Assembly (NCBI GenBank): GCA_017512675.1
Contig: JAFWEY010000142.1
Span: forward strand, 1-51,849
Direction of reading: 5' to 3'
Length of the DNA stretch: 51,849 bases
Source: Clostridia bacterium
GTDB taxonomy: Bacteria > Bacillota > Clostridia > Christensenellales > Aristaeellaceae
Shown: piece after piece, positions 6,890 through 47,663 of the stretch
Numbering within the stretch: the stretch's first letter is position 1
Layout: each line of letters starts with the position of its first letter
Notes under the pieces: model-generated
The model's input: only the letters and a program-made list of their open reading frames with translations
What the model was told of the DNA's origin: nothing
The model's database searches: none
Translations under genes and position numbers: made by a program

Positions 6890-7016
6890 GAGAATCACCA
6901 TACCGGCGCGGTGACCGGCGCATTAGGACGAAAACGGATGCCGCAGAATTCTCCGTTCACCGGGAATATGCTCCTGAGAGGAACCCGCGGATCGGGCGGT
7001 TGGCTGCACTGCATTC

Positions 7017-28376: not shown

Positions 28377-29300
28377 ATGAAAACGTGGATTGCTCTGGTA
28401 CTGGCTCTGGTCTTCGCGCTGTCCTGCACGATCGCTCTGGCGGAGGACGAGGAGAACTACGAAACCGGCGACGCGACGCTGGATCTGGTTCGCAACGAGG
28501 ACGATATCGGCGAGAAGGAACTGCTGGTCGTTTCTTTCGGCACCAGTTTTAACGACAGCCGGCGCCTGACCATCGGCGGCGTGGAAGCGGCCATCGCGGA
28601 AGCACTGCCGGAATTCTCCGTTCGCCGCGCGTTTACCGCGCAGATCATCATCGATCACGTTGAGAAGCGCGACGGTATCCACATCGACAACGTCACCGAG
28701 GCGCTGGACAGGGCGGTAAACAACGGAGTGAAAACTCTTGTGGTGCAGCCCACCCATCTGATGCACGGCTTCGAGTACGACGAGCTGGTGGAAACGCTGG
28801 GCGGGTACGCCGACGCGTTTGAGCAAATCGTGGTGGGGGAACCGCTGCTGACGAGCGAGGACGATTTTTCCCGCGTGGCCAACCTCATGATCGACGTGAC
28901 AAAGGAATACGATGACGGCGAAACCGCGATTGTCTGGATGGGCCACGGCACGGAGCACGAATACAACAAAATCTACGGCGAGATGCAGCAGGTGCTCAGC
29001 GGACTGGGCGCAGAAAACACCTACGTCGGCACCGTGGAAGCGGCTCCGTCGCTGGAGGACGTGATGGCGGCCATCGACGGCAAGGGATACAAGCGCGTTG
29101 TGCTGCGCCCGATGATGGTGGTTGCCGGCGATCACGCGAACAACGACATGGCGGGTGACGAAGAGGATTCCTGGAAGGCCGTTCTGACGGAGGCCTGTTA
29201 CGAGGTCGAATGCGTTCTGGAAGGTCTCGGCCAGGTGGAAGGGATTCAGCAGATCTACGTCGAGCACGCGCAGGCCGCGGCGGCGCAGACCGCACAATAA
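28377..29300 (+). CDS. cbiK: Exported sirohydrochlorin cobaltochelatase CbiK
   Basis: Predicted 307 residues; ATG 28377 after CAAGGAGGG. Residues 1-22 are a signal peptide (MKTWIALVLALVF, cleavage after ALA). The rest is a class II chelatase: ELLVVSFGTSFNDSR, the first metal His in QPTHLMHGFEYDE, the second in WMGHGTEHEYN, and a C-terminal RPMMVVAGDHANNDM. CbiK normally inserts Co2+ into sirohydrochlorin in the cytoplasm. Exported forms are known (periplasmic CbiKP of Desulfovibrio; the CbiK-like IhtB of Porphyromonas, implicated in haem handling). It heads the B12 operon just before exported binding proteins and an importer, suggesting extracellular metal or tetrapyrrole capture. No second, cytoplasmic CbiK/CbiX is seen. 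Confidence 0.9.
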   Translation: MKTWIALVLALVFALSCTIALAEDEENYETGDATLDLVRNEDDIGEKELLVVSFGTSFNDSRRLTIGGVEAAIAEALPEFSVRRAFTAQIIIDHVEKRDGIHIDNVTEALDRAVNNGVKTLVVQPTHLMHGFEYDELVETLGGYADAFEQIVVGEPLLTSEDDFSRVANLMIDVTKEYDDGETAIVWMGHGTEHEYNKIYGEMQQVLSGLGAENTYVGTVEAAPSLEDVMAAIDGKGYKRVVLRPMMVVAGDHANNDMAGDEEDSWKAVLTEACYEVECVLEGLGQVEGIQQIYVEHAQAAAAQTAQ

Positions 29301-29372: not shown

Positions 29373-30227
29373 ATGAAATACCGTATACTCAGCCTGTTGC
29401 TTGCGATGCTGTTTATGTCTTTCGCGGCTGCGGCGGAAGAAGGGAATGGCAGCGGAGTCGCAAGCGCATCGGACATGACCGATGTGATCGACATCGTCGA
29501 CGAAAACTCGGTGCCGGTAACCGCGCAGCAGCTGAACGACGGCGTCTATCCGGTGGCCGTGGACGTTTCCTCATCGATGTTCAAAGTGGTCGGCTGTGAA
29601 GTGACCGTCCAGGACGGAAAGATGACAGCGCGCCTCTCGATGAAGAGCAAAAGCTACGAGGCCATGTATCCCGGCACGGCGGAAGACGCGGCAAGAGCGC
29701 CGAAAGAGGCGCTGGCGATGCTGGAAGAGCAGGCGGACGGCAAGCTGACCTTTACGCTTCCCATCGACGCGTTCGATGCGGGTTATGAATGCGCGGCGCT
29801 CAGCGCGCGCAAACAGCTGTGGTATCCCCGCACGCTGGTGTTCCGCTCCGATTCCCTTCCCCTTGACGCGTGGAAGGAGGAGTGCCTGAAAACGCCGGAA
29901 TCGCTGGCGCTTTCTGACGGGACGTACACCTGTGACGTCAGGCTGGAGGGCGCGGGACGCGCGTCGCTGGCGTCGCCCGCCGTTGTGACCGTGCAGGACG
30001 GAAAATGCAGCGCGCGGATCGTGTTTTCCACTTCGAAAATCGATTACGTGATCGTGGACGGTCAGAGATTCGAGCCGGCGGGGAATGAGAACGGCGCGGC
30101 GTTCACCGTCCCGGTAGCGGTCTTCGACCGGAAGCTGCCGATCACGGTGGACAGCACCGCCATTACGCCGTCCGTCGAAGTCGCCTATTCGATGACATTT
30201 GACGCGCAGAGCATTGCGCCGCAATGA
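29373..30227 (+). CDS. Exported protein with two copies of an unassigned beta-rich module
   Basis: Predicted 284 residues; start at 29373 after GGGGGG, with signal peptide MKYRILSLLLAMLF...AAAA. Two similar modules follow (56-162 and 181-276). Each opens with a DG-x-Y strand (LNDGVYPVAVDV; LSDGTYTCDV), then VTVQDGK, (S)ARLS/ARIVF and a Ser-x-x-Tyr strand, and closes with an F-x-x-P stretch before a Val/Ile-rich end. The layout (DGxY start, SMF, V-x-DGK) recalls haem-binding NEAT domains, but the diagnostic YxxxY is not clear; that is inference. A third copy begins the next gene's product. Position between exported CbiK and BtuF suggests binding of a corrinoid, porphyrin or cobalt complex. Confidence 0.72.
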   Translation: MKYRILSLLLAMLFMSFAAAAEEGNGSGVASASDMTDVIDIVDENSVPVTAQQLNDGVYPVAVDVSSSMFKVVGCEVTVQDGKMTARLSMKSKSYEAMYPGTAEDAARAPKEALAMLEEQADGKLTFTLPIDAFDAGYECAALSARKQLWYPRTLVFRSDSLPLDAWKEECLKTPESLALSDGTYTCDVRLEGAGRASLASPAVVTVQDGKCSARIVFSTSKIDYVIVDGQRFEPAGNENGAAFTVPVAVFDRKLPITVDSTAITPSVEVAYSMTFDAQSIAPQ

Positions 30228-30243
30228 GCCGGGAGGGACCGGA

Positions 30244-31677
30244 ATGAGAAATCGACTTGCGCTGGTGTTGGCCGTTCTGCTTGCCGCCGTGGCCGCTGCC
30301 GTCTGCGCGGAGGGGGAATTGCCGAACGGCGTTTATGCGCCCGACGAATTCCGCTTCACAGGCGGCACGGGAAGGGTGGTCATCGATTGCCCGCAGGTTG
30401 CCGTCGCGGACGGGCAGGCGACTGCCCGCATCGTGTTCGGCAGCCCCAATTATACGACGCTCACGTACGACGGCGTTCAGTATACGGCGGCACACGAAGG
30501 CGATGCCTCGGTCTTTGAAATCCCCGCCGAGCTCAACCGTTCCTTTGAGATCACCGCCGTAACCACGGCGATGAGCCGCCCTCACGGGATCGGGTACACG
30601 CTGTATATCCAGCTGAACGCGGCCCGGCACGAAAAAGACCTGGCCGGCCTTACGTGGGAGAGCGAACTGCCGCTTTCCTACGCGGAATGCTTTTCGGTGG
30701 ATTTCTACAGCGGAGGATACGCGCTGATCGATGTAAAGGACGGCGCCCGCTATCTGGCCGTGCCGGAAAACCAGCCGGTTCCCGAAGGACTCGATCCCGG
30801 GATCACCGTGCTGCCCCAGCCGTTGGATCGGGTGTACCTGGCGGCCACCCCCGTCATGTCGCTGATCGATCGGCTGGACGCGATGGACGCCGTGCGCTTT
30901 TCGGGCACGCAGGCGGAAGGCTGGACGGTGGAAAACGCGTCGGAAGCCATGCGCGCCGGCTCCATGCTTTTTGCCGGGAAATACAGCGAGCCGGATTACG
31001 AACTGCTTTTGCGCGAGGAGTGCGATCTGGCGGTGGAATCCACGATGATCCTCCACACGCCGAAGGTGCAGGAACTGCTGGAAATGCTGGGGATCCCGGT
31101 ATTCGTCGATCGCTCCAGCTACGAGCCCCACCCGCTGGGGCGCACCGAATGGATCAAGGTTTACGGGGTGCTTTTCGGCAGACAGGCCGAGGCCTGCGCT
31201 TTCTTCGAAGAGCAATGCGCCATTCTCGATTCGATCGGAGACTTTCCCCAAACGGACCGGATGGTCGCGTTTTTCTACATCAGCGCCGACGGCTCCGTCG
31301 TAGTGCGCGGCGCTTCGGACTACGTGGCGGATATGATCGCGCTTGGCGGCGGCAGATACGCGTTTTCGGACATGACGGATGAAGACAGCACCAGGGCGTC
31401 CGTGTCGATCACGATGGAGGATTTCTACGCCGCGGCGTCGGACGCGGATTATCTGATCTACAATACTTCCATCGATACGACGGTTTCCGGCCTCGCGGAT
31501 CTGATTGCCCGCAGCGGGCTGCTTTCACAGTTCAAAGCGGTGCGCGAGGGCAACGTATGGTGCGCGGGCAGCGATCTGTTTCAGGCGGCGGACACGTCGG
31601 CCGGCATGATTTCCGACATTCACAAAATGCTGTGCGGAGAAGAAGAGGGCATGGTTTTTCTGAAAAAGCTGTGCTGA
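30244..31677 (+). CDS. btuF: ABC transporter substrate-binding protein (BtuF/FecB-like) with N-terminal extra module
   Basis: Predicted 477 residues; start at 30244 after GGGAGGG. Signal peptide (1-22; no lipobox, unlike most Gram-positive binding proteins), a third copy of the repeated module (27-125), then a class III periplasmic-binding fold (~130-477): YAECFSVDFYSGGYALIDV, CDLAVESTMILHTPKVQELLEMLGI, VFVDRSSYEPHPLGRTEWIKVYGVLFG. Helix-linked two-lobe proteins of this class bind cobalamin, haem or siderophores. BtuC and BtuD homologues follow. The B12 riboswitch supports a corrinoid or precursor ligand; haem cannot be excluded. Confidence 0.83.
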   Translation: MRNRLALVLAVLLAAVAAAVCAEGELPNGVYAPDEFRFTGGTGRVVIDCPQVAVADGQATARIVFGSPNYTTLTYDGVQYTAAHEGDASVFEIPAELNRSFEITAVTTAMSRPHGIGYTLYIQLNAARHEKDLAGLTWESELPLSYAECFSVDFYSGGYALIDVKDGARYLAVPENQPVPEGLDPGITVLPQPLDRVYLAATPVMSLIDRLDAMDAVRFSGTQAEGWTVENASEAMRAGSMLFAGKYSEPDYELLLREECDLAVESTMILHTPKVQELLEMLGIPVFVDRSSYEPHPLGRTEWIKVYGVLFGRQAEACAFFEEQCAILDSIGDFPQTDRMVAFFYISADGSVVVRGASDYVADMIALGGGRYAFSDMTDEDSTRASVSITMEDFYAAASDADYLIYNTSIDTTVSGLADLIARSGLLSQFKAVREGNVWCAGSDLFQAADTSAGMISDIHKMLCGEEEGMVFLKKLC

Positions 31678-31687: not shown

Positions 31688-32707
31688 ATGGAAAGACGAA
31701 AGCAACGGGTGCGGATCACGTGGATGTTCGCGATGCTGTCATTTGCGCTTCTTGTCAGCGCGGTTCTGAATATCGCGCTGGGCAGCGTGCAGATTCCGCT
31801 TCGGGACATCGCGGAGGTTTTGCTGCGCCGAAACGATAACCGTATGTATGAAGACATCATCTGGCAGATCCGTCTGCCGCGCCTCGTGATGGCCGCGGTT
31901 CTCGGCGGCGGGCTCGCCGTATCGGGCTTTCTTCTGCAGACGTTTTTCGGCAACCCGATCGCCGGCCCCTTCGTGCTGGGCATTTCTTCCGGCGCGAGGC
32001 TGGCCGTGGCGCTGACGATGATCGTCTTTCTGGATCGCATGCAGGCGGCGTCCTCCTGGGTGCTGGTGTTTTCCGCGATGATCGGATCCCTCGCCTGCAT
32101 GGGCTTCATTCTGCTGCTTGCGAACCGTCTGAAGCACATGTCAACGCTGCTTGTAGCCGGCATCATGATCGGCTATATCTGCTCCGCCGTCACTGATTTT
32201 ATCGTAACCTTTGCCAGTGAATCCGATATCGTCAACCTGCGCGGATGGTCGCTGGGCAGCTTTTCCGGCATGAACTGGGAAAACATCCGCGCGGCTTCCG
32301 CCATCATCGGCACAGGGTTCGCCCTTTCCCTGCTGATGAGCAAGCCGATGGGCGCGTACCAGCTGGGAGAGGCCTATGCCCGAAGCGTCGGCGTAAATAT
32401 CCGGTGGTTCCGAATCGCGCTGATTCTGCTTTCCGGCGCGCTTTCCGCCTGCGTGGCGGCGTTTGCCGGACCGATCTCCTTTGTGGGCATCGCGGTGCCG
32501 TATCTGATCAGGCGCCTGTTCAATACGTCCAGGCCGCTGATCGTGATTCCGGCGGCGTTCCTGGGCGGAGCGGTCTTCTGCATGGGATGCGATTTGATCG
32601 CGCGCACCGCGTTCGTGCCGACCGAGCTCAACGTCAGCACGGTCACCTCCGTGTTCGGCGCGCCAGTGGTCATCGTTATGATGCTCAGACGGCGGAAGGC
32701 GGGGTGA
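31688..32707 (+). CDS. btuC: FecCD/BtuC-type ABC permease
   Basis: Predicted 339 residues with about ten membrane helices. Family motifs: RLPRLVMAAVLGGGLAVSG, QTFFGNPIAGPFVLGISSGA, GWSLGSFSGMNW, and FAGPISFVGIAVPYLIRRL near the C-terminus, which contacts the ATPase. It forms the channel of the importer fed by the preceding binding protein. The spacing (10 and 4 bases to its neighbours) makes one translational unit. Confidence 0.92.
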   Translation: MERRKQRVRITWMFAMLSFALLVSAVLNIALGSVQIPLRDIAEVLLRRNDNRMYEDIIWQIRLPRLVMAAVLGGGLAVSGFLLQTFFGNPIAGPFVLGISSGARLAVALTMIVFLDRMQAASSWVLVFSAMIGSLACMGFILLLANRLKHMSTLLVAGIMIGYICSAVTDFIVTFASESDIVNLRGWSLGSFSGMNWENIRAASAIIGTGFALSLLMSKPMGAYQLGEAYARSVGVNIRWFRIALILLSGALSACVAAFAGPISFVGIAVPYLIRRLFNTSRPLIVIPAAFLGGAVFCMGCDLIARTAFVPTELNVSTVTSVFGAPVVIVMMLRRRKAG

Positions 32708-32711
32708 TTCG

Positions 32712-33812
32712 ATGGAGCGCTATTCTGTCAGTGTTCGGGATCTGGCCGTGGGCTATGACGGGAAACCCGTCCTTCGAAATGTCAGCTTCGATATCGGGCA
32801 GGGTGAAATCGTCACGCTGATCGGGCCCAACGGCGGGGGGAAATCGACGCTGCTGAGAAGCATCGTCCGGCAGCTGGAGACTCTTGCCGGTACGGTTGAA
32901 ATCAACGGACGCCTGCTGAACAGCATCTCTGCCCGCGATCTCGCAAGGCAGACGGCGGTGGTTCTGACCGATCGGATCAGGCCGGAGATGACGACCTGCC
33001 GGGAAATCGCGGCGATGGGCCGCTATCCTTATACCGGCCCGATCGGCATTCTGTCAAAGGAAGACGAAATGCAGGTGGACGCGGCGCTGAAGGCCGTGGA
33101 AATGAGCGATTATGCGCAGCGGGATTTCAATGCCGTCAGCGACGGCCAGCGTCAGCGCGTGCTGATTGCCAGAGCGATCTGCCAGCAGCCGAAGATCATC
33201 GTGCTGGACGAACCGACTTCTTTCCTGGATATTCGCCACAAGCTGGAGCTGCTGAGCCTCCTAAGGCGCATGGCCCGGGAGCAGGGGATCACCATCCTGA
33301 TGTCGCTGCACGAAATCGATCTGGCGCAGAAGATCTCCGATAAAATCCTGTGCGTGGAAAACGGGCGCCCGGTCCGTTTCGGCACGCCGGAGGAACTGTT
33401 CACCGAAGACGGGATCCGGTCGCTGTACGAACTGGAGAACGGCTGCTACGATCCGCTTTTCGGCGCGGTCGAACTGCCGGGAGCGCAGGGACGTCCGCAG
33501 GTGTTTGTTCTGTCGTCGGGCGGCACAGGGATTCCGGTGTACAGAAAGCTCGCGGGGAACGGGATCCCGTTTGCCGCCGGAATTCTGTATACAAACGATC
33601 TGGACTGTCACCTGGCGCATCGCCTGGCGTGCGAGGTGGTAACGGAAGAAGCGTTCTGCCCGATTTCCGATCCGGCCTGCGCGCGGGCGATGGCTCTGAT
33701 TCGGGAAGTGCCGCGCGTGATCGACGCGGGGGTAAAAATCGGTCCGTGCAACAGCAGGATCCGGGATCTGATCCTTGAAGCCAAAACGCTTGGCAAATAC
33801 GGGGAGGCGTAA
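32712..33812 (+). CDS. btuD: BtuD/FecE-type ABC ATPase with C-terminal extension
   Basis: Predicted 366 residues. The ATPase domain (1-~250) has Walker A GPNGGGKST (38-46), signature SDGQRQRVLIARA, Walker B IIVLDEPTSFLD and switch His in LMSLHEIDLA. An extra ~115-residue C-terminal domain follows: VFVLSSGGTGIPVYRKLAGN, GILYTNDLDCHLAHRL, VVTEEAFCPISD, VIDAGVKIGPCNSRIRDL. This extension is absent from E. coli BtuD and I cannot name it; it looks like an independent alpha/beta domain and may sense ligand or metal. It powers import through the preceding permease. Confidence 0.9.
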   Translation: MERYSVSVRDLAVGYDGKPVLRNVSFDIGQGEIVTLIGPNGGGKSTLLRSIVRQLETLAGTVEINGRLLNSISARDLARQTAVVLTDRIRPEMTTCREIAAMGRYPYTGPIGILSKEDEMQVDAALKAVEMSDYAQRDFNAVSDGQRQRVLIARAICQQPKIIVLDEPTSFLDIRHKLELLSLLRRMAREQGITILMSLHEIDLAQKISDKILCVENGRPVRFGTPEELFTEDGIRSLYELENGCYDPLFGAVELPGAQGRPQVFVLSSGGTGIPVYRKLAGNGIPFAAGILYTNDLDCHLAHRLACEVVTEEAFCPISDPACARAMALIREVPRVIDAGVKIGPCNSRIRDLILEAKTLGKYGEA

Positions 33813-33817: not shown

Positions 33818-34885
33818 GTGGAGGCGCTCAGAGAGGGGTTTACAACCGGCAGCTGTGCCGCGGCGGCGGCGCTGGCCTGCTGCCTGTGGCAGCGCGACGG
33901 CGTCTGTCCGAAGCAGGTGTCTTTGACCGTACCCGAAGGGCGGACCTTCACGGCGGAGATCGTATCCCATGCGGACGGAAGCTGCGGCGTGATCAAGGAC
34001 AGCGGAGACGATCCGGACATCACGAACGGCATGGAGATCGTCGTTCGGGTCGAACCCGCCGAAAATGAAGGCGCCGTGCGCTTTGCGGCGGGAGACGGCG
34101 TGGGAAGGATCACCGCGCCGGGGCTGAAACTCCCGGTGGGCGAAGCGGCGATCAACCCGGTGCCGCGGCAGATGATCGAAGAAGCAGTGCGCTCCGTATT
34201 TCAGCGGCGCGCCTGTCTGGTGACGGTTTCGATCCCCGGCGGGCGGGAACTGGCGATGCGCACCTTCAATCCCCGGCTGGGCATCGAAGGCGGGCTGTCG
34301 GTGCTGGGCACGAGCGGCATCGTCCGGCCGATGAGCAGCAGGGCGCTGCGGGATTCGCTCGCGGAGGAGCTGAATATGCGCGTCGCCCAGGGGCACACGT
34401 CCCTGATCTATACCTTCGGGAACCAGGGCGAACGGGCGATGCAGCGGCTGTTCCCCGGCATCCCTGTGGTGCAGGTAAGCAACGAAATCGGCTTTATGCT
34501 GGACGCGGCGCGGGAACGGGGCATTCAGAGCATCCTTTTGGGCGGACACCCCGGCAAGCTGGCGAAGGTCGCGGCGGGAATCATGCAGACCCACAGCCGA
34601 TGGGCGGACGGACGGCGGGAGGCGATCATCACGCAGCTGGCGCGGATGAATGCGCCGCTGCCGCTGATCGAATCGGTGTATGCCTGTGTGACGACGGACG
34701 CCGCCGCCGACAGGATTCACAGCGCCGGCTTCGACGCGGTGTGGGGGAAGGTCGCCGAAGCCGCCAGGCATTACTGTGAACTGCGTTTGGGCGGCGGAAT
34801 TCAGATCCGCGTCGTCTGCCTTGACCGGCAGGGGCGAATCCTGGGGCATGCAGGCGCACAGCGGGAGAACGGAGGGCGCATCTGA
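33818..34885 (+). CDS. cbiD: Cobalt-precorrin-5B C1-methyltransferase CbiD
   Basis: Predicted 355 residues from GTG 33818, after GGGGAGG. Anaerobic-pathway enzyme that methylates C1 after ring contraction. Signatures: REGFTTGSCAAAAALA at the N-terminus, GVGRITAPGLKLPVGEAAIN, the central LSVLGTSGIVRPMS, GNQGE and SNEIGFMLDAA. Its presence with CbiG and CbiK identifies the early-cobalt, oxygen-independent pathway. The stop overlaps the cobD start. Confidence 0.95.
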   Translation: MEALREGFTTGSCAAAAALACCLWQRDGVCPKQVSLTVPEGRTFTAEIVSHADGSCGVIKDSGDDPDITNGMEIVVRVEPAENEGAVRFAAGDGVGRITAPGLKLPVGEAAINPVPRQMIEEAVRSVFQRRACLVTVSIPGGRELAMRTFNPRLGIEGGLSVLGTSGIVRPMSSRALRDSLAEELNMRVAQGHTSLIYTFGNQGERAMQRLFPGIPVVQVSNEIGFMLDAARERGIQSILLGGHPGKLAKVAAGIMQTHSRWADGRREAIITQLARMNAPLPLIESVYACVTTDAAADRIHSAGFDAVWGKVAEAARHYCELRLGGGIQIRVVCLDRQGRILGHAGAQRENGGRI

Positions 34886-35916
34886 TGCATGGAGGAAACG
34901 TGTGGCAGGGAGACGCGCCCGAACAGTGGCTCGATTTTTCGGCGAACACCCGGCCTGAAGGCGCCCCGGAGTGGGTGACGCAGGCCGCCCTGCGGGGAAT
35001 GCGTCACATTCGGTATTATCCGGACCCCGAAATGCGCCGGATGACGGATGCGCTGGCGGCCTGCCTGGGAATCCCCTCCGGGTGCGTATTGCCTGCTGCG
35101 GGCGGCGTTTCCGCGATTGATCTGGCGATGTATGCCGCGGAAAGCGGCGTGACGGCGGTGGAGCCGTGCTTTTCCGAATACCGGTCCCTGGCGGCGCGGC
35201 ACGGTCTGCCGTTTCGCGGATTTCCGATGTCCGCTGGATTGCAGGCGATCCCGGACAGCGCGCTTGCCGGCGGCCTGCTGTGTCTGACAAATCCCAACAA
35301 CCCCACCGGCCGCGCGTTTGGAACGGCGGAGACAGAACAGCTGCTATGCCGGGTGGAGAAGGCGAACGGATACCTGCTGGCCGACGAAGCGTTCATTGAG
35401 TATTGCCCGGAATTCTCTGTGCGGCAGGCGGCCGCCGCCCGCGAGCGGCTTTTGGTGGCGGGTTCCATGACCAAGATCCTCGGCATTCCTGGGCTTCGGC
35501 TCGGGTATCTGTGCGGGCATCCGCGCACGCTCGGGCGGCTGCGGGCGAAGAGGCTTCCCTGGGAAGTGAACGCGGTCGCCGAGGCCGTCGCCTGCGCGCT
35601 GCCCGATCACGCGGAAGACATTCGGCGGGACGCGGAGATCAGCGCGGAACGCCGGCAGGCGTTGGCGCGCGCACTGGAGGACACGGGCGCATTCGTGTAC
35701 GATTCACAGGCCCCGTTTTTGCTGGTGAAATACCAAAGGCCGGTGCATCCCCTCGCGCAGTGGCTGAAGAACCGGCGGATTCTGGTGCGCGAGTGCATGG
35801 ATTTTACGGGTGTCGACGACGGGTATCACCTGCGGGTGGCGGTGAAGGATGAAGAATCGAACGCGCGCCTGACGGAGGCGCTGAAGGAAGGGCTGTTATG
35901 CGCGGAAAATCGCTGA
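34885..35916 (+). CDS. cobD: L-threonine-O-3-phosphate decarboxylase CobD
   Basis: Predicted 343 residues; ATG 34885 overlaps the cbiD stop. PLP-dependent fold type I enzyme that makes (R)-1-aminopropan-2-ol phosphate for the nucleotide loop. Motifs: LTNPNNPTGR, the ADEAFIEY Asp, the Schiff-base Lys in GSMTKILGIPGLRLGYL and the C-terminal Arg in YHLRVAVKD. The precise reaction is assigned from operon context, because histidinol-phosphate aminotransferases are close relatives. It overlaps cbiP by 19 bases. Confidence 0.92.
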   Translation: MHGGNVWQGDAPEQWLDFSANTRPEGAPEWVTQAALRGMRHIRYYPDPEMRRMTDALAACLGIPSGCVLPAAGGVSAIDLAMYAAESGVTAVEPCFSEYRSLAARHGLPFRGFPMSAGLQAIPDSALAGGLLCLTNPNNPTGRAFGTAETEQLLCRVEKANGYLLADEAFIEYCPEFSVRQAAAARERLLVAGSMTKILGIPGLRLGYLCGHPRTLGRLRAKRLPWEVNAVAEAVACALPDHAEDIRRDAEISAERRQALARALEDTGAFVYDSQAPFLLVKYQRPVHPLAQWLKNRRILVRECMDFTGVDDGYHLRVAVKDEESNARLTEALKEGLLCAENR

Positions 35917-37433
35917 TGATTCAGGGAACGGCGTCCTCGGTGGGCAAATCCGTGCTGTGCGCCGCGCTGCTGCGCATCATGAAGCAGGACGGCCTGCGCT
36001 GCGCTCCGTTCAAGGCGCAGAATATGGCGCTCAATTCTTTCGCGACCAGCGAAGGCCTGGAAATGGGCCGCGCGCAGGTGGTGCAGGCGGAGGCGGCGGG
36101 CATCGAGCCCTCTGTTCGCATGAATCCGGTTTTGCTCAAGCCCACGTCGGACCGGCGCAGTCAGGTGATTGTAAACGGAAAAAGCATCGGAACCATGTCT
36201 GCCGCGGAGTACGAGCGGTTTAAGCCGCAATTGCGGGAAATGATCCGGTCGGTCTACGGCCGCCTGGAGGGCGGCGTGGACGCGGTGGTCATCGAAGGCG
36301 CGGGCAGTCCCGCCGAGATCAACCTGAAACAGGGGGACATCGTAAACATGTCGATGGCCAAAAGCGCGGACGCGCCGGTCATTCTGGTCGGCGACATCAA
36401 TCCGGGCGGGGTGTTTGCCGCGCTGTACGGAACGGTGAAGCTGCTCGACGAAGAGGAGCAGGCCCGGATCAAGGGCATCGTGATCAACAAGTTCCGCGGC
36501 GATGTGCGCATCCTTGAAAGCGGGCTGGACCGGATCGAGCAGCTGCTTGGAATTCCGGTGATCGGGGTGATACCCTGGACGGAGATCGATCTGGAGGATG
36601 AGGACAGCGTGACGGACCGCTTCGAGCGCAGCGGCGGCGCAGCGCCGGTAAAGGTGGCGGTGGTGCATCTGCCGCACATTTCGAACTTTACCGATTTTAA
36701 CCTGCTGTCCGCGGAACCGGATGCGGCGCTGTGCTATACCGCGAAGGCTCAGGATATACGGGAAGCGGATGTGGTGATTCTGCCCGGCACCAAGAATACC
36801 ATCGAGGATCTGGAATGGATGCGGGCGATGGGCATTGCGGAGCAGGTGGTGCGGCATGCCCGTGAAGGGGGCCTGACCATCGGCATTTGCGGCGGTTATC
36901 AGATGCTCGGACGCGCGCTGTTCGATCCGCAGCATGTGGAGTCGGCGATCCCGCAGACGGAGGGACTGGGCCTGCTGGATTTTTCCGTCACCTTCAGAGC
37001 GGAGAAAACCACCGTACAGGCGGCAGGCGCGATCCGCGCGGAAAGCGGATGGCTCAGCAGATGCGACGGAACGGTGGTGGACGGGTACGAAATCCACAGC
37101 GGTGTGAACGATTTCGGCCCGGAGTGCATCCCGTTTCTGTCCCTGAACGGGAGAACGGAGCCGGACGGGATCATGAACCCGGAAGGCAGCGTGATGGGCA
37201 GCTATCTGCACGGCATTTTCGACAGCGAGCCCTTTCGCAGGGCAGTGGTGAACCGGGTGCGGACCGAAAAGGGAATGGCAGAACGCGCCGGAACCGCCCT
37301 GACGGCGGCGCAGTTCCGCGAGAAAGAATTCGATCGGCTGGCGGCGGTCGTACGGCAGAATCTGGATATGGACGCGGTGTACAGAATCATGCGCGGCGAA
37401 GACGTTCCGTGCGGCAGGTGGTCCCATGCGTAA
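35898..37433 (+). CDS. cbiP: Cobyric acid synthase CbiP/CobQ
   Basis: Predicted 511 residues. Glutamine-dependent amidation of the b, d, e and g side chains of adenosyl-cobyrinate diamide. An N-terminal dethiobiotin-synthetase-like ATPase (QGTASSVGKSVLCAALL, KAQNMALNS, EGAGSPAEINL) is followed by a class I-like amidotransferase with nucleophile Cys in GICGGYQMLGR and His in SYLHGIFDS. Length matches the family (~500). Confidence 0.96.
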   Translation: MRGKSLMIQGTASSVGKSVLCAALLRIMKQDGLRCAPFKAQNMALNSFATSEGLEMGRAQVVQAEAAGIEPSVRMNPVLLKPTSDRRSQVIVNGKSIGTMSAAEYERFKPQLREMIRSVYGRLEGGVDAVVIEGAGSPAEINLKQGDIVNMSMAKSADAPVILVGDINPGGVFAALYGTVKLLDEEEQARIKGIVINKFRGDVRILESGLDRIEQLLGIPVIGVIPWTEIDLEDEDSVTDRFERSGGAAPVKVAVVHLPHISNFTDFNLLSAEPDAALCYTAKAQDIREADVVILPGTKNTIEDLEWMRAMGIAEQVVRHAREGGLTIGICGGYQMLGRALFDPQHVESAIPQTEGLGLLDFSVTFRAEKTTVQAAGAIRAESGWLSRCDGTVVDGYEIHSGVNDFGPECIPFLSLNGRTEPDGIMNPEGSVMGSYLHGIFDSEPFRRAVVNRVRTEKGMAERAGTALTAAQFREKEFDRLAAVVRQNLDMDAVYRIMRGEDVPCGRWSHA

Positions 37434-38796
37434 GGATGCGGCGCGGCTGCTGATCGCCGGAACCGGCAGCGGCTGCGGAAAGACCACTTTGGTGTGCGCG
37501 ATCCTGCAGGCGCTTGTGAATCGAAAGCTGGATACGGCGGCGTTCAAGTGCGGGCCGGATTACATCGATCCGATGTTTCATGCCGAGATTCTGGGCATTC
37601 GCGGATCGAATCTCGACCTGTTCTTCACCGACGGAGACCGGACGCGCAGCCTGTTTCTGAAGCATGCCGGGGATATAAACGTCATCGAAGGCGTGATGGG
37701 ATACTACGACGGGCTGTCGGCGGCCTCGGCCGAAGCGTCGGCATGGCACATGGCGCAGGTTCTGGATGCGCCGGCAGTGCTGGCGGTGGATGCCAGGGGC
37801 ATGGCCCTTTCGGCCGCGGCGGCCGTCAAAGGCTTTTTGACCCTGCGCTCGCCGAGCCGCATTGCGGGAATCCTTCTCAATCGGGTATCCGCGTCCCGAT
37901 ATCCGCAGATCAAATCGGCGATCGAAAGCGAATGCGGAGTTCCCGTGTACGGGTTCCTGCCGGATATGCCCGGGGCCGTGCTGGAGAGCCGGCATCTGGG
38001 GCTGGTGACAGCCCAGGAGGTGGAGGGCCTGCGCTCGAAAATGCAGCTGCTGGCGAAAACGGCGGAGGAATGCGTCGATATCGCGGGATTGCTGGATCTG
38101 ATGCGGAACGCGCCGGCGCTTGAGGCCGATCCGATCGGGGAAACGAAAATCGGCGATGTGCGCGTGGCCGTGGCGCGGGACCGGGCGTTCTGCTTCTACT
38201 ACAGGGAAAACCTGGAACTGCTGGAGGAATTGGGCGCGTCTCTGGTGCCGTTCAGCCCGCTGGAGGACGACGCGCTTCCCGAATGCGACGGGCTGTACAT
38301 TGGAGGCGGGTATCCGGAATTGTACCCGGAACAGCTCAGCCGGAATGCGCGGATGCGCGCGTCCGTGCGGGAAGCGGTGCTGGGCGGTCTGCCCACGATC
38401 GCCGAGTGCGGCGGTTTTATGTACCTGACCGGGCAGATTGCGGGGCATCCGATGGCAGGGGTCCTGCCGGGAGGCTGTGTAAATCGGGGCAGGCTGGTGC
38501 GCTTTGGATATCAGCAGCTGATCGCGGATCGCGACAGCCTGCTGTTCGGGGCGGGAGACGCCGTCCGGGGCCACGAATTTCACTACTGGGATGCGGAGCA
38601 AACCGGGAACGCGCTTCGGGCGGTGAAGCCTTCCGGCCGCAGCTGGCGCTGCGGCTATGCCTGGGATACGCTGTATGCCGGATTCCCGCATCTGTACTTC
38701 CCCGGTTGTCCGAACGCCGCGCGCCGGTTCGTGCGGAGATGCGTTGAAAGGAAGATGCGCAATGCGCCCGATGGAGATCGAGAAGAAAAGCTTTGA
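37426..38796 (+). CDS. cbiA: Cobyrinate a,c-diamide synthase CbiA/CobB
   Basis: Predicted 456 residues, overlapping cbiP by eight bases. It amidates carboxylates a and c of (cob)yrinate using glutamine and ATP. Features: P-loop GTGSGCGKTTLVCA (~11-24), KCGPDYIDPMFH, IEGVMGYYDG, then a C-terminal glutaminase with IGGGYPELYPEQL, catalytic Cys in AECGGFMYLTG, and HEFHYWD. Intact and of normal length. Confidence 0.96.
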   Translation: MRKDAARLLIAGTGSGCGKTTLVCAILQALVNRKLDTAAFKCGPDYIDPMFHAEILGIRGSNLDLFFTDGDRTRSLFLKHAGDINVIEGVMGYYDGLSAASAEASAWHMAQVLDAPAVLAVDARGMALSAAAAVKGFLTLRSPSRIAGILLNRVSASRYPQIKSAIESECGVPVYGFLPDMPGAVLESRHLGLVTAQEVEGLRSKMQLLAKTAEECVDIAGLLDLMRNAPALEADPIGETKIGDVRVAVARDRAFCFYYRENLELLEELGASLVPFSPLEDDALPECDGLYIGGGYPELYPEQLSRNARMRASVREAVLGGLPTIAECGGFMYLTGQIAGHPMAGVLPGGCVNRGRLVRFGYQQLIADRDSLLFGAGDAVRGHEFHYWDAEQTGNALRAVKPSGRSWRCGYAWDTLYAGFPHLYFPGCPNAARRFVRRCVERKMRNAPDGDREEKL

Positions 38797-39382
38797 AATC
38801 ATTGCCGGGGAATTGAAGGGCAAACCCATTGATCCGGAATACGACCTGCTGGTGCGCCGCGTCATTCACGCGACGGCGGATTTCGATTACGCGGACAGCC
38901 TTTGTTTTTCCGAACACGCGATGGAGAATCTGCTGGACGCGATACGCTCCGGCGCCGACATTGTAACCGACACCGCGATGGCGAAAGCGGGGATCAACAG
39001 CCGCGCGCTTTCGAAATTCGGCGGGGCGGTTGACTGTTACATCGCAGACCCGGAGGTGGCGGAAGAGGCCAAAGCGCGCGGCACCACGCGCTCGTGGGTT
39101 GCGATGGAAAAAGCGGCGCGGCTTCACGAGCGGCCGGTCTTTGCCATCGGGAACGCGCCCACGGCGCTGCTGTCGATCTGCAGGATGGTGCGCGCGGGAG
39201 AACTGGAACCGCGGTTTGTGATCGGCGTGCCGGTGGGGTTCGTTGAGGTCGTCGAGGCGAAGGAGGCGCTGATGCAATTGCCGGTGCCGTACGTCATCGC
39301 CCGCGGCCGCAAGGGCGGGAGCCCGGTGGCCGCGGCGATCGTCAACGCGGCGCTGTATCAGCTGGCTGAGCGGGAGGAATAA
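38762..39382 (+). CDS. cbiC: Cobalt-precorrin-8 methylmutase CbiC
   Basis: Predicted 206 residues from ATG 38762 (AAGGAAG upstream); ATG 38771 is possible. It moves the C11 methyl to C12, giving cobyrinate. Signatures: the catalytic His in VRRVIHATADFDYA, GADIVTDTAMAKAGI, FAIGNAPTALL, GVPVGFVEVVEAKEAL and the late GRKGGSPVAAAIVNA. It overlaps the end of cbiA by 35 bases. Confidence 0.95.
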   Translation: MRPMEIEKKSFEIIAGELKGKPIDPEYDLLVRRVIHATADFDYADSLCFSEHAMENLLDAIRSGADIVTDTAMAKAGINSRALSKFGGAVDCYIADPEVAEEAKARGTTRSWVAMEKAARLHERPVFAIGNAPTALLSICRMVRAGELEPRFVIGVPVGFVEVVEAKEALMQLPVPYVIARGRKGGSPVAAAIVNAALYQLAEREE

Positions 39383-39384
39383 TT

Positions 39385-40140
39385 ATGGTGCATTTTGTCG
39401 GCGCCGGCTGCGGCGCACCGGATTTGATCACCGTGCGCGGCGCGCGACTGCTCGCCCAGGCGGACGTGGTCATCTACGCCGGATCGCTGGTCAATCCGGC
39501 ATTGCTGGAATACGCGGGGAAAGACGCGCGGATTTACGACAGCGCGAAGCTGACGCTGGAAGAAATCATGGGCATCATTTGCGCCGCGGAAAGCAGCGGG
39601 AAAACCACGGTGCGCCTGCATACCGGAGACAGCAGCCTTTACGGCGCGGTGCGGGAGCAGTTTCAGGCGCTGGATGCGATGGGGATCGAATACGACGTGT
39701 GCCCCGGGGTCAGCGCGATGTTCGGAGCTGCGGCCGCGCTGAAAGCGGAGTACACGGTGCCGGAGCTGTCGCAGACGGTCATCATATCCAGGGTCGAAGG
39801 CCGTACGCCCGTTCCGGAAAAGGAAAGGCTGCGGGAGCTCGCGAAACACGGAGCCACCATGGTGCTTTATCTCAGCGCGGGGCATATTGGCCGGGTGCAG
39901 CAGGAACTGCTCAGCGGCGGTTATCCGGAAGACACTCCGGCGGCGATCGCGGCGAAGGCCACCTGGCCGGAAGAAGAGCTGCTGCGCTGCCGCGTCGGAA
40001 CGCTGGAGCAGACCGCCCGCGAGCACGGGGTCGAAAAGACGGCGCTGATTCTGGCGGGCGCGTTTCTGGGCGAAGGCGGCAGCCGGTCGAAGCTGTACGA
40101 TCCGGAGTTTTCGACCGGATGCCGGGAGGCGAAGCAATGA
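39385..40140 (+). CDS. cbiF: Cobalt-precorrin-4 C11-methyltransferase CbiF
   Basis: Predicted 251 residues; GGGAGGAATAATT precedes the start. SAM-dependent tetrapyrrole methylase: N-terminal FVGAGCGAPDLITVRGARL, the GDSSLYGAV loop, VCPGVSAMFGAAAALKAEYT, MVLYLSAGH and a GAFL stretch near the end. CbiF/CobM is the best match, as AEYTVPE is characteristic. Its stop overlaps the cbiG start (ATGA). Confidence 0.94.
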   Translation: MVHFVGAGCGAPDLITVRGARLLAQADVVIYAGSLVNPALLEYAGKDARIYDSAKLTLEEIMGIICAAESSGKTTVRLHTGDSSLYGAVREQFQALDAMGIEYDVCPGVSAMFGAAAALKAEYTVPELSQTVIISRVEGRTPVPEKERLRELAKHGATMVLYLSAGHIGRVQQELLSGGYPEDTPAAIAAKATWPEEELLRCRVGTLEQTAREHGVEKTALILAGAFLGEGGSRSKLYDPEFSTGCREAKQ

Positions 40141-41138
40141 GCCGCGCAGCGGTTCTGGCGTTCAGCGAACGCGGCGCAAAAACGGCACAGCGGATCGCGT
40201 GCGCGCTGGAGGGCAGCTATGAAGTGGAGCTGTACCCGGCGGCGCGCAGCCTGTCAAAGCTGATGGAGGACATCTTTCCGAAGGTGCAGGCGCTGGTGTT
40301 CGTCGGCGCCTGCGGCATCGCGGTGCGCGCAGTGGCGCCGCACCTGGTGAGCAAAGCGAGCGACCCCGCGGTGCTGGTCTGCGACGAGAAGGGCGAATTT
40401 GTGATCTCCCTTCTGTCCGGACACATCGGCGGCGCGAACGCGCTGTCCCGCCGGGTGGCAGAGGCGCTGGGGGCAGCCGCGGTGATTACCACCGCGACCG
40501 ATGTCCAGGGCCGCTTTTCGGTGGATGCGTGGGCAGCGGAAAACGGGATTCCCGTACCCGACCTGCACCTGGCAAAGCGCTTTTCGGCGGAAATCCTGAA
40601 ACGCGATCTGCCGTTTGCCTGCGATTTTCCGGTCAGGGGCGCGCTGCCGCCGGGATTGTATGCGGGCTGCGAAGGGGATTTGGGGCTTGCGGTTTCCTGC
40701 CGGGACATCCGGCCGTTTGCCGCGACGCTGGCCCTGGTGCCCCGGATCCTGACGGTCGGCATCGGCTGCAAGCGCGGCACGCCGGCAGAGGCGATCGAAG
40801 AGGCGGTCGGGCGCGCGCTGGAAAGCGGAGGATTCAGGAAGGAAGCGCTTTTCTGCGCCGCGTCCATCGATCTGAAGCGGGATGAACAGGGGCTCCTGTC
40901 CTGGGCGGAGGAAAGCGGGCTGCCGATTCGGTTCTATTCGGCGGAGGCGCTGAACGCGCTGCGGGGCGCGTTTACGGCATCGGAGTTCGTGGCGCGGACC
41001 GCGGGCGTGGACAACGTCTGCGAGCGTGCGGCCGTGCGCTGTGCGGGAGAGGGCGCCTGCCTGGCCGTAAGAAAAACCGCCGCAAAAGGCGTTGCGGCCG
41101 CGATTGCACAGAAAGAATGGGGTGTCTGCTTTGAATAA
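40137..41138 (+). CDS. cbiG: Cobalt-precorrin-5A hydrolase CbiG
   Basis: Predicted 333 residues. It opens the delta-lactone of cobalt-precorrin-5A, releasing acetaldehyde, in the anaerobic route. N-terminal domain: FVGACGIAVRAVAPHL, ISLLSGHIGGANALSRRVA and TTATDVQGRFSVDAWA. C-terminal domain: VGIGCKRGTPAEAIEEAV, then CAASIDLKRDEQGLLSWAEE. Both halves are intact and not fused to CbiH as in some relatives; the two genes overlap by eight bases. Confidence 0.95.
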   Translation: MSRAAVLAFSERGAKTAQRIACALEGSYEVELYPAARSLSKLMEDIFPKVQALVFVGACGIAVRAVAPHLVSKASDPAVLVCDEKGEFVISLLSGHIGGANALSRRVAEALGAAAVITTATDVQGRFSVDAWAAENGIPVPDLHLAKRFSAEILKRDLPFACDFPVRGALPPGLYAGCEGDLGLAVSCRDIRPFAATLALVPRILTVGIGCKRGTPAEAIEEAVGRALESGGFRKEALFCAASIDLKRDEQGLLSWAEESGLPIRFYSAEALNALRGAFTASEFVARTAGVDNVCERAAVRCAGEGACLAVRKTAAKGVAAAIAQKEWGVCFE

Positions 41139-41859
41139 GCTGTATGTGGTCGGGATCGGTCCGGGCGCGGCTGAGGACATGACGCTGCGGGCCCGGGCGG
41201 CGCTGGACGACGCTTCCGTGATCGTCGGGTATACGACGTATGCCAATCTGATTCGGCCGCTGTTTCCCGGCAAAGAATACATCGTCACCGGCATGCGCAG
41301 GGAAACGGAGCGCTGCAGGGCCGCGGTGGAGTGTGCCAAAGCCGGCCGAACCGCCGCGATCGTTTCCAGCGGCGACGCCGGCGTGTACGGCATGGCGGGT
41401 CTGGCGCTGGAAATGGCGGCCGGAACCGGTGTGGAAGTCGAGATTGTGCCCGGCGTGACCGCGGCGCTGAGCGGAGCCGCCAGGCTGGGCGCGCCGATCG
41501 GGCACGACTTTGCGGCAATCAGCCTGTCCGATCTGCTGACTCCCTGGGAAAAGATCGAAAAGCGGCTGACGCTGGCGGCGGAGGCCGATTTCTGCCTTGT
41601 GCTGTATAACCCCGCCAGCCGCCGGCGAACGGATGCGCTGAAGCGCGCCTGCGAAATCGTGATGCGCCATGCGTCGCCGGATACCGTGTGCGGCGCGGTG
41701 CGCAACGCGGGGCGGGAGGGAGAAGAAACGCTGGTTATGACCCTGCGGGAATTGGCGTCCTATACCGCCGACATGTGCACGACCGTATTCATCGGAAATT
41801 CGCAGACCAAAACGGTAGGATCGGGAATCGTCACGCCGAGAGGGTACAAAGATGTCTGA
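41131..41859 (+). CDS. cbiH: Cobalt-precorrin-3 C17-methyltransferase CbiH
   Basis: Predicted 242 residues from TTG 41131 (GGGGTG upstream), the codon that starts the conserved LYVVGIGPGAAEDMTLRA. Tetrapyrrole methylase that methylates C17 with ring contraction. Other motifs: VSSGDAGVYGMAGLALE, EIVPGVTAALSGAARLGAPIG (the LGAPI typical of CbiH/CobJ), CLVLYNPASRRR, and the end GNSQTKTVG. No ATG lies in a plausible position. Confidence 0.93.
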   Translation: MNKLYVVGIGPGAAEDMTLRARAALDDASVIVGYTTYANLIRPLFPGKEYIVTGMRRETERCRAAVECAKAGRTAAIVSSGDAGVYGMAGLALEMAAGTGVEVEIVPGVTAALSGAARLGAPIGHDFAAISLSDLLTPWEKIEKRLTLAAEADFCLVLYNPASRRRTDALKRACEIVMRHASPDTVCGAVRNAGREGEETLVMTLRELASYTADMCTTVFIGNSQTKTVGSGIVTPRGYKDV

Positions 41860-43852
41860 AATCTGTGTGTTCGCGGGAACCAGCGAGGGACGCAGGCTGG
41901 TTTGGCGCCTGCGGGGCAGGGGCGCGCGCCTGACGGCCTGCGTGGCCACGGAATACGGCGCGGAACTGCTGGGAACCCATGCGGACGTTCGGGTTCGCGT
42001 GGGGCGGCTGGATCTGGAAGCCATGAAATCGATGCTGCGGGAAGAGCGCTTTGACGCGGTCGTCGACGCCACTCATCCGTACGCGGACCGGGCCACGGAA
42101 AACATCGCGGCGGCGTGCGGCGCGGAGGGCGTCGCGTATCTTCGGCTGGAACGGTCCGGCAGCGCAGACAGCTCCGACGGCGTGTTTGTGCAGGACGCCG
42201 CCGGCTGCGCCGAATACCTGAAGACGACAGAAGGCGCGGTTCTGCTCACTACGGGCAGCAAGGATCTGGCAGCCTTTTGCGCCGACGGCGCCCTGCGCGG
42301 AAGGCTTTTCGCCCGGGTGCTTCCGAACGCGGATTCGCTGAAAGCCTGCCTGGAGAACGGGATTCCGGCGGATCGGATCTTCGCGATGCAGGGGCCCTTC
42401 GACGAGGACATGAACTGCGCGATGCTCAGAGCAGCAGGCGCGAAATATATCGTCACCAAGGACAGCGGCAGCGCCGGCGGATACGCGGCAAAGATTCGCG
42501 CGGCGGAGAAGTGCGGCGTCTGCCCTGTGATCATCGGCCGGCCGCCGCAGCGGGAGGGACAGCCTTTCGAGGCTGTGGCGGCGGAACTGGAGACGCGCTT
42601 TCACCTCGCGCCCGCGCCGAAGCGGGTGACGTTGGCGGGGATCGGCGCAGGAAATCCCGAAACCCAGACTGCCGGACTGCGGCAGCTGCTGCGGGAGGCG
42701 GATTGCCTGATCGGCGCAAGGCGGATGCTGGATGCGGCGAACGCGCCGGGCAAACGCGAATACGAGGCGTTCGACGCCCGGGAAATTGCCGCATATGTCC
42801 GGGACGAGAAAGAATGCCGGAACTTTGCCGTGCTCTTCTCCGGCGATCCGGGCTTTTACAGCGGCGCGAAAAAACTGCTGGGCGAGCTCGAGGGGCAGCC
42901 GGGGATCACCGTGGAAGTCCTTCCGGGCATAAGCTCGCTGGCGTATTTCTGCGCAAGGCTCAAAAGGTCCTGGGAAAACGTCCGCACGGTGAGCCTGCAC
43001 GGAAGGGAAGAGGATCTGGAAGGCGCTGTACGCGGCAGCGAACAGGTGTTCGTGCTGGCGGGCGGCGCAGACGGCGTCAAAAGAGCGCTGCGGCGCCTGA
43101 CGGAATCCGGCATCTGCGGGCTGACCGTGACGGTCGGGGAGCGGCTCGGGTATCCGCAGGAACGCATTGTCCGGGGATCGGCGAGCGAACTTGAAGCCCT
43201 GGAATTCGATCCGCTCAGCGTGCTTTTGGTGGAAAACCCGAACGCCGGGAAAACGGCGGTTACCCAGGGCCTGCCGGACGATCTGTTCGAACGCACCGGG
43301 GTGCCGATGACGAAATGCGAAGTGCGCAGCGTCACGCTGTCGAAGCTGGCGCTCAACCGGGATTCGATCGTTTACGACGTCGGTTCAGGCAGCGGCTCGG
43401 TATCCGTGGAATGCGCGCGTCTTGCCGACCGGGGAACGGTTTATGCGATCGATCAGAATCCGGAAGCGGCGTGTCTCACGGAAAGAAACGCCGAAAAATT
43501 CTCGCTGCGCAACATCCGGATCATACGCGGCACCGCGCCGGAGGCGCTTATGGATCTGCCGGCGCCTACCCATGCGTTTATCTGCGGCAGCTGCGGCCGG
43601 CTGCGCGGGATTCTCGAATGCCTGCTGGAAAAGAATCCGTCTGTGCGCATCGTCGTCAATGCGGTCACCCTGGAAAACCTGTCGGAAATGGCGCAGATTG
43701 CGTCGATGTTTGAATGGTCGGACATTGCCGGAATTTCGGTGGCAAAACCCCGCGCCGTCGGGAGCTTTCACCTGATGACCGCGCAGAATCCGGTGTACGT
43801 CTTTGCACTGCAAAACCGGCGCAAAGGCGAAACAGGGGGGAGAAACCCGTGA
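41852..43852 (+). CDS. cbiJET: Trifunctional CbiJ-CbiE-CbiT fusion
   Basis: Predicted 666 residues in three parts. CbiJ (1-~250): cobalt-precorrin-6A reductase, with VFAGTSEGRRL, DATHPYADRATEN and MQGPFDEDMN. CbiE (~258-460): C5 methyltransferase, with VTLAGIGAGNPET, LFSGDPGFYSGAKKLL and EVLPGISSLAYFCARL. CbiT (~472-666): C15-methyltransferase/decarboxylase, with MTKCEVRSVTLSKL, the SAM motif YDVGSGSGSVSVECA and FICGSCGRLRGILE. CbiE-CbiT fusion (CobL type) is common; adding CbiJ in front gives one protein for consecutive steps. All signatures are present, with no stop or frameshift at the joints. Confidence 0.94.
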   Translation: MSEICVFAGTSEGRRLVWRLRGRGARLTACVATEYGAELLGTHADVRVRVGRLDLEAMKSMLREERFDAVVDATHPYADRATENIAAACGAEGVAYLRLERSGSADSSDGVFVQDAAGCAEYLKTTEGAVLLTTGSKDLAAFCADGALRGRLFARVLPNADSLKACLENGIPADRIFAMQGPFDEDMNCAMLRAAGAKYIVTKDSGSAGGYAAKIRAAEKCGVCPVIIGRPPQREGQPFEAVAAELETRFHLAPAPKRVTLAGIGAGNPETQTAGLRQLLREADCLIGARRMLDAANAPGKREYEAFDAREIAAYVRDEKECRNFAVLFSGDPGFYSGAKKLLGELEGQPGITVEVLPGISSLAYFCARLKRSWENVRTVSLHGREEDLEGAVRGSEQVFVLAGGADGVKRALRRLTESGICGLTVTVGERLGYPQERIVRGSASELEALEFDPLSVLLVENPNAGKTAVTQGLPDDLFERTGVPMTKCEVRSVTLSKLALNRDSIVYDVGSGSGSVSVECARLADRGTVYAIDQNPEAACLTERNAEKFSLRNIRIIRGTAPEALMDLPAPTHAFICGSCGRLRGILECLLEKNPSVRIVVNAVTLENLSEMAQIASMFEWSDIAGISVAKPRAVGSFHLMTAQNPVYVFALQNRRKGETGGRNP

Positions 43853-43955
43853 AGGGCTGTCCCGGGTTGGCAAAAGAAGCGTTCCCGCGCTCCGGGGAAG
43901 CGGATTCGGCGCACGCGGCGAAAGGCGGCGGGCAGGGACGGAGGCACGCGAAGCG

Positions 43956-44930: not shown

Positions 44931-45017
44931 AAGCCGAAGAGCGCCCGCGGCGGACGCCGTCGCCGCCGGACCGGCGGGAAGCACCTGCCGCGCTCACGGC
45001 AGAATGAGAGGAGCATT

Positions 45018-47340: not shown

Positions 47341-47663
47341 AGCTGTACATCGGAGGCGCGTACCAAGGGCAGCAGGAACTGGCGCGCAGGGAAAACCCCG
47401 GCGCGGAGATCCTCGGAGATTTTCATGATGCGGCGCGCGCCGCACTGCTGCGGGGAGAGGACGCACGGGATTTTGCCCGCCGCGTATGCGGGGAGCATCC
47501 GGATGCGGTGATCGTCGCAAACGAAGTGGGTTCGGGGATCGTGCCGGTCGATCCCGCGGAGCGGGCGTTCCGGGAAGCCGCGGGGCGGGCGCTGTGCGTC
47601 ATTGCCCAGCGCGCGGAGCAGGTGACGCGGGTCGTATGCGGGATCGGGGTGCGCATCAAATGA
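47337..47663 (+). CDS. Short CobU paralogue with lost P-loop lysine
   Basis: Predicted 108 residues, ATGA overlap with cobS. The C-terminal half is CobU-like (VIVANEVGSGIVPVDPAERAFREAAGR, then VVCGIGVRIK). The N-terminus LYIGGAYQGQQELA matches the CobU P-loop position, but the essential Lys is Gln. The central His region is missing. Related short proteins in Lachnospiraceae have an intact GGxxQGK here, to my recollection. It may be a non-catalytic partner that supplies the NEVGxGIVP segment missing from the other CobU, or a decaying duplicate. Confidence 0.78.
   Translation: MKLYIGGAYQGQQELARRENPGAEILGDFHDAARAALLRGEDARDFARRVCGEHPDAVIVANEVGSGIVPVDPAERAFREAAGRALCVIAQRAEQVTRVVCGIGVRIK

Follow-up and report, generated by a model that had tools for sequence, protein, structure and literature searches.

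Which ligand is held by a module that a gut bacterium exports in three copies, spread over two neighbouring proteins that are encoded within a cobalamin operon? The DNA comes from a Clostridia bacterium of the Aristaeellaceae (contig JAFWEY010000142.1 of assembly GCA_017512675.1), and the whole forward-strand stretch of 51,849 nt that was analysed is called the window. The analysis uses MAG assemblies, and that of the window's genome is 83% complete. The first-pass annotation had pointed out a module of about 100 residues repeated three times across two adjacent exported proteins, and the repeat is indeed present and correctly placed. The gene at 29373..30227 (+) encodes a secreted two-module protein of 284 aa, with module D1 at residues 52-165 (29526..29867, +) and module D2 at residues 176-284 (29898..30224, +). 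The adjacent gene at 30244..31677 (+) encodes a substrate-binding protein of 477 aa, in which an N-terminal module, D3 (residues 23-130; 30310..30633, +), precedes a Peripla_BP_2 domain (residues 204-444, E 3.1e-30). Both proteins start with a signal peptide, the models of both show an N-terminal helix at residues 2-21, and the exported proteins of this system in the window carry no lipobox. Smith-Waterman scores of all module pairs exceed the means of 1000 shuffles, with 52 against 26.7 for D1-D2 (p 0.003), 54 against 24.7 for D1-D3 (p <0.001) and 97 against 26.3 for D2-D3 (p <0.001). Profile-profile comparison by hhalign, based on alignments of relatives, agrees and is significant for each pair (E 1.3e-7 for D1-D2, 1.1e-4 for D1-D3 and 9.6e-13 for D2-D3). 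With the two-module protein as sole query against its own genome, D3 is recovered with an E value of 1.1e-5.

The annotation had also guessed at a NEAT or Ig-like fold, and predicted structures bear this out. The AlphaFold2 model of the two-module protein, built from 12 aligned sequences, has a mean pLDDT of 89.6, with D1 and D2 mostly above 90; D3, in the model of the binding protein, lies mostly at about 78-93. One strand order is common to D1, D2 and D3 in the AlphaFold2 models. All ten Foldseek matches of the two-module model in the PDB with E <0.001 are NEAT domains (IsdB, IsdH and IsdX1; best E 1.2e-6), and the top VIA matches are NEAT as well. VIA-align superimposes D2 on IsdX2-NEAT5 with a Z score of 12.5 and an rmsd of 2.1 over 101 residues, and residues 55-279 match N2-N3 of IsdH as a pair of modules. 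The eight-stranded Ig-like NEAT fold with its lip region is found in D2 by structure and in D3 by profile similarity to D2 together with strand order. The VIA matches of the 30244-31677 protein model fall on the binding domain throughout, and D3 is placed by profile and strand order. D1 is assigned by homology and model, and a D1-type module of a relative matches Pfam NEAT.

Pfam NEAT (PF05031) scores the two-module protein at 14.8 bits in D2 (E 0.041), below the gathering score of 32.8. It matches 5 of 12 family members of this protein, all below the cut-off (best E 9e-4), and the best relative, the D1-type module mentioned above, reaches 23.1 bits (E 1e-4), which is still below 32.8. Because the gathering score is missed, we term the modules divergent modules with a NEAT fold and not Pfam-certified NEAT domains. 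Against the PDB, neither the isolated modules nor profile A1 matched any NEAT protein by sequence, and there the likeness to NEAT emerges from structure comparison only. A match to the flavoprotein PplA (E 0.0076) was dropped, as its alignment covers the signal peptide and the linker. We conclude that, as modelled, D1, D2 and D3 are all divergent NEAT-fold modules.

Haem is the best-known ligand of the NEAT fold, and haem-binding NEAT domains use an S/YXXXY motif on strand 8 in addition to the lip (PMC7815599). The full YxxxY is found in none of the window's D1, D2 and D3, nor in most relatives (58 D1, 35 D2 and 24 D3 sequences). Four residues before the conserved Tyr, D1 sequences (n=58) carry Lys (61%), Arg (18%) or Tyr (14%), D2 sequences (n=35) mostly a hydrophobic residue or Thr, and D3 sequences (n=24) His (88%) or Arg (12%). 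Another four residues ahead of this His/Arg position, between the last two strands of the model, Met110 of D3 is invariant (24/24). A reading in which the iron ligand would lie four residues ahead of the conserved Tyr was withdrawn, since the ends of the VIA alignments suggest a shift by two residues. NEAT domains without YXXXY have been described from clostridia by Honsa et al. 2014, with their function left open (PMC4143258). Compared by description, that group shares with our modules the occurrence in Clostridia, the lack of YXXXY and a conserved Met in the beta7-beta8 loop (cf. Met110 of D3), and differs from them in that the context of the window points to cobalamin precursors. In Staphylococcus and Bacillus, the haem relay of the Isd proteins (IsdA/B/C/H, IsdX1 and IsdX2) uses NEAT domains and resembles the window modules in its fold and in the tandem modules within one protein. 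As proposed here, both systems would also hand a flat tetrapyrrole from exported NEAT modules to an ABC importer. In contrast to the Isd relay, the window modules lack S/YXXXY, NEAT is fused to the binding protein (here) or to the chelatase (in relatives), and the window has a cobalamin riboswitch and a cobalamin gene cluster.

The operon starts with a cobalamin riboswitch aptamer (RF00174; 28010..28219, +; cmscan 89.1 bits against a gathering score of 31.5, E 8.6e-21), 157 nt ahead of a gene for an exported CbiK-type cobaltochelatase of 307 aa with a signal peptide (28377..29300, +). The two-module gene and the fusion of NEAT module and binding protein follow, then a FecCD/BtuC-type permease (31688..32707, +; Pfam FecCD E 1.5e-77, top NCBIfam model BtuC) and an ABC ATPase of the corrinoid-transporter type with a C-terminal extension (32712..33812, +; NCBIfam PRK09536 E 5.7e-67). 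From CbiD onward, the anaerobic cobalamin genes CbiD, P, A, C, F, G, H, JET, B, CobT, U and S extend over 33818..48211 (+). CbiD, P, F, G, H, JET and CobT were named by family models and the remaining cobalamin genes from their translations. Among the first six genes of the operon, intergenic gaps are at most 72 bases. Binding protein, permease and ATPase make up a BtuF-type importer, with 105.8 bits for Peripla_BP_2, 261.2 for FecCD and 112 for the ABC ATPase, all above the Pfam cut-off. The C-terminal extension of the ATPase comprises about 110 residues, as in the PRK09536 model of a corrinoid-transporter ATPase.

The product of 28377..29300 scores 261.8 bits with Pfam CbiK (PF06180; gathering score 26.2, E 8e-78) and stays below the stricter NCBIfam CbiK equivalog cut-off (217 vs 400). 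In the alignment with 1qgo, its His190 and His253 align with His145 and His207 of Salmonella CbiK, whose catalytic roles have been described (PMC7689651). It is the single CbiK recovered by the genome search, and we regard it as a predicted cobaltochelatase with both catalytic histidines intact. The closest sequence in the PDB is FetB (9b86, E 1.8e-46), an exported CbiK homologue from Porphyromonas gingivalis.

FetB binds haem and has been proposed to take iron from it, and thereby leads to the main rival explanation for the locus, an Isd-like uptake of haem. The NEAT modules would then take haem, CbiK would remove the iron, haem or porphyrin would be imported, and the position of this system in the B12 cluster would be incidental. 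The best-known ligand of NEAT domains fits such a function (PMC7815599), and so does the model of the binding protein, which resembles siderophore, haem (PhuT/HutB) and B12 (BtuF) binders alike. FetB is reported to use protoporphyrin as the acceptor of manganese (PMC13402209). Sirohydrochlorin is thus not a necessary substrate of an exported CbiK, which is a counterpoint to any reading based on a B12 precursor. Against haem stand the cobalamin riboswitch at the head of the operon, the missing YxxxY in the window modules and most relatives, and the cbi genes that follow in several families. The operon feeds the cobalamin pathway and haem cannot be converted into a corrin, which disfavours haem as the ligand. 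The likeness to haem-binding NEAT domains that had been noted at the outset is supported for the fold and is not supported for the ligand, given the lack of YxxxY, the riboswitch, the exported cobaltochelatase and the cobalamin pathway downstream. We consider haem uptake unlikely, and an isobacteriochlorin precursor of B12 is a likelier cargo than haem.

The distribution of the module among relatives also bears on this question. Among 300 genomes of the family, the module occurs in 56, CbiD in 67 and both in 54. CbiD is found in 54 of 56 genomes with NEAT versus 13 of 244 without (Fisher p 2e-44, for related genomes that are not independent and with no correction for ancestry), and NEAT thus tracks the cobalamin pathway in a way that haem uptake would not lead one to expect. 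Within the first 150 genomes, CbiK is present in all that carry both CbiD and NEAT; among the eight with CbiD and no NEAT, CbiK is undetected in six, lacks a signal peptide in one and is exported in one. NEAT was undetected in 13 genomes with CbiD, most of which also have no detected CbiK, and the ten of their loci that were read have no NEAT nearby. An exported CbiK without NEAT is seen at L123. NEAT accompanies the chelatase step more than import as such. L124, L127, L130, L131 and L132 encode an importer of binding protein, FecCD and ABC alongside cbi genes, with no NEAT or CbiK at the locus. These relatives may take up an intermediate that already carries cobalt, and a NEAT-independent import of such a cobalt-loaded form seems to exist.

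Importer loci of this kind are informative for a second explanation, in which a finished corrinoid is imported and the NEAT modules assist the BtuF-type protein in binding cobinamide or cobalamin. Control by a cobalamin riboswitch suits B12 uptake, and the permease and ATPase are closest to BtuC and corrinoid-transporter models. The importer loci without NEAT and CbiK, however, adjoin the same cbi genes, so that NEAT goes with CbiK and not with transport as such. Import of a finished corrinoid also leaves the exported chelatase, the CbiK-NEAT fusions and the complete mid-pathway Cbi set in genomes without HemB, HemC and HemD unaccounted for, and we find it quite improbable.

Early tetrapyrrole synthesis is where the genomes with NEAT are incomplete. 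In 17 of the 24 NEAT genomes tested, including that of the window, none of HemB, HemC and HemD could be detected. Several of these 17 genomes are at least 94% complete and two consist of a single contig, with the window's genome at 83%; two weak partial HemD-like matches, one each from G002 and G016, were disregarded. Among the 300 family genomes, HemC is found in 16, all of which have NEAT and CbiD, and is undetected in 38 that have both. CbiL is undetected in 12 of the 17 Hem-less genomes, among them that of the window, and no CbiX besides CbiK was found in the 24 NEAT genomes. For the window's genome, a search that covered HemB, HemC, HemD and CbiL found none of them in the 83%-complete assembly, and the late genes are present. 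Apparently, the Hem-less NEAT genomes keep the enzymes from CbiH onward yet cannot make their substrate. The absence of Hem genes from an 83%-complete assembly could instead be an assembly gap; near-complete relatives nonetheless agree. CbiL is the C20 methyltransferase and acts on the cobalt form, so that its absence from cells that have CbiK is only partly accounted for, which is a counterpoint to salvage. At L083 and L084, CbiL adjoins a second, distantly related FecCD/ABC pair, and in both of these relatives CbiL is present and HemC undetected.

We think it reasonably probable that the NEAT modules hold an isobacteriochlorin precursor of B12 outside the cell, where CbiK adds cobalt, and that the product is relayed to the importer and completed to cobalamin. 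Other cells would release a metal-free isobacteriochlorin, either sirohydrochlorin or factor III, which is C20-methylated sirohydrochlorin. The secreted two-module protein would bind it outside the cytoplasmic membrane, and cobalt would be inserted by the exported CbiK. The NEAT module of the binding protein would then receive the cobalt form and pass it to the binding domain of that protein, import would proceed through FecCD with the ABC ATPase, and the cytoplasmic Cbi enzymes would complete cobalamin. Through the riboswitch, B12 would turn the operon off. With the fold and homology of the modules, the gene order, the riboswitch, the exported chelatase, the fusions, the co-occurrence and the lack of detectable HemB, HemC and HemD as observations, we infer the identity of the ligand, the order of hand-over and the supply of the precursor by other cells.

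The gene order of the window recurs, in whole or in part, in relatives of the same family. In most of the same-family loci read, a cobalamin riboswitch lies upstream, and it is also found at L057, L058 and L060, three loci in which CbiK pairs with the two-module gene at a distance from other cobalamin genes. The modules recur in 13 genomes from five other families. Most of the loci read there hold CbiK, importer or cbi genes, several have the riboswitch, and in several families cbi genes continue the gene order. A D2/D3-type module and the binding protein, which form one protein in the window's family, are separate adjacent genes in other families (L106-L109). The exported CbiK of L114 and L118 has a lipoprotein signal and carries, within one open frame, a D1-type module at its C-terminus. 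NEAT is thus joined to the chelatase and, elsewhere, to the importer's binding protein, as a hand-over chain predicts. The relay from a stand-alone module to the importer's binding protein, which had been suggested from the window alone, gains support at the sequence level from gene context and from these fusions.

The modules have multiplied within the window's family. At L043, an open frame of 1009 aa (3278-6304) that adjoins the importer has several D1- and D3-type NEAT-fold modules in tandem. Two fused chelatase domains are found in exported CbiK frames of about 620-650 aa at L042 (6462-8411) and L043 (357-2210). D1-type modules also occur in very large proteins at L113 (6986-10402), L115 (7454-10672) and L116 (10993-14625), which in addition carry carboxypeptidase-regulatory, fn3 or FMN-binding domains. 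Those of L113 and L115 have no cobalamin genes nearby, which shows that the module also occurs outside B12 loci.

Where HemC is present, the genome has a compact synthesis set that consists of hemC, cobA/hemD, cbiL, an ABC-2 ATPase and permease, a NEAT protein and a CysG-type precorrin-2 dehydrogenase, with hemB nearby. The NEAT protein of this operon has two modules and a C-terminal membrane anchor. With small variations, the set is seen at L051-L054 and L085-L093, and L110 and L112 show it in two other families. At L087 (G060), the synthesis genes are present and the exporter is missing. At L085, L086 and L091, a CbiK is inserted into the set, and no signal peptide is seen in those copies that retain an intact start. 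At L086 (6261-7337; G253:C127), an in-frame TAA splits the anchored NEAT gene in one of the two synthesis-operon copies of the genome. A generic ABC-2 exporter as the usual partner of the window's system was considered and rejected, as it is absent from the window's genome and from most relatives.

About ten relatives have the operon for synthesis, CbiL, ABC-2 and anchored NEAT, and several of them hold an exported CbiK-NEAT pair or an importer elsewhere. This arrangement would fit cobalt capture, in which tetrapyrrole made by a cell would be sent out as a cobalt shuttle and taken back loaded, so that the system would serve cobalt uptake and not salvage. The window's genome and most relatives with NEAT, however, have neither the synthesis genes nor such an exporter, so that cobalt capture cannot account for the system in them, and a cytoplasmic CbiK in some synthesis operons means that cobalt can be inserted inside the cell. 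We judge cobalt capture to be highly improbable. The preferred reading, salvage of a precursor, can be extended to an exchange between cells. Producer Clostridia would make (cobalt-)factor III from an operon with hemB, hemC, cobA/hemD, cbiL, cysG and sometimes a cytoplasmic cbiK, and would export it via the ABC-2 pump and the anchored NEAT protein. Relatives that have lost these genes would capture it via NEAT, metallate it outside when needed and import it. This extension is tentative, and we hold it to be possible rather than probable. It is suggested by a producer operon that combines the genes that salvagers lack with a transporter of the exporter type and the same carrier module; export of a B12 intermediate as such would follow from the transporter class alone.

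Known systems share parts of this arrangement. Desulfovibrio has an intact tetrapyrrole synthesis of its own, its CbiK is reportedly periplasmic in D. vulgaris, and we know of no NEAT modules in this system. It resembles the window in the B12-controlled CbiK that adjoins a BtuCDF-type importer and in the location of CbiK outside the cytoplasm. In Desulfovibrio, the riboswitch controls cbiK-cbiL with btuCDF (PMC545781), and D. vulgaris CbiK (2xvx) is described by Lobo et al. 2008, as cited in PMC12654859. FetB also shares export with the chelatase of the window, is its nearest PDB homologue by sequence and comes from a host, P. gingivalis, without precorrin-2 synthesis (PMC6461909). It differs in its reported product, manganese protoporphyrin (PMC13402209), and to our knowledge FetB has no NEAT partner. 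Shelton et al. 2018 (PMC6461909) describe bacteria that keep the corrin pathway and lack early tetrapyrrole genes as tetrapyrrole precursor salvagers. Unlike in those salvagers, HemB, HemC, HemD and often CbiL are undetected here, which points to a precursor later than 5-aminolevulinate. As far as the accessible sections of that paper go (PMC6461909), no uptake system is named for precursor salvagers in the literature found.

Among open-licence papers, nothing joins sirohydrochlorin to NEAT, and the combination of NEAT, cobalamin and cobalt yields papers on haem only. The parts of the system are known, their combination is new and the ligand is probably new. The locus names candidate proteins for capture, metallation and import in precursor salvage. 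It links the orphan clostridial NEAT domains without YXXXY (PMC4143258) with bacteria that have a corrin pathway and are short of tetrapyrrole, as known from PMC6461909. If the proposed mechanism is true, a B12 intermediate gains its cobalt extracellularly, and gut bacteria may share it with one another. Elsewhere in the window, at 3774-6901 (-), an exported FMN-binding protein lies beside a FAD_binding_2 flavoprotein and a MerR-like regulator, and this group resembles an extracellular reductase unit.
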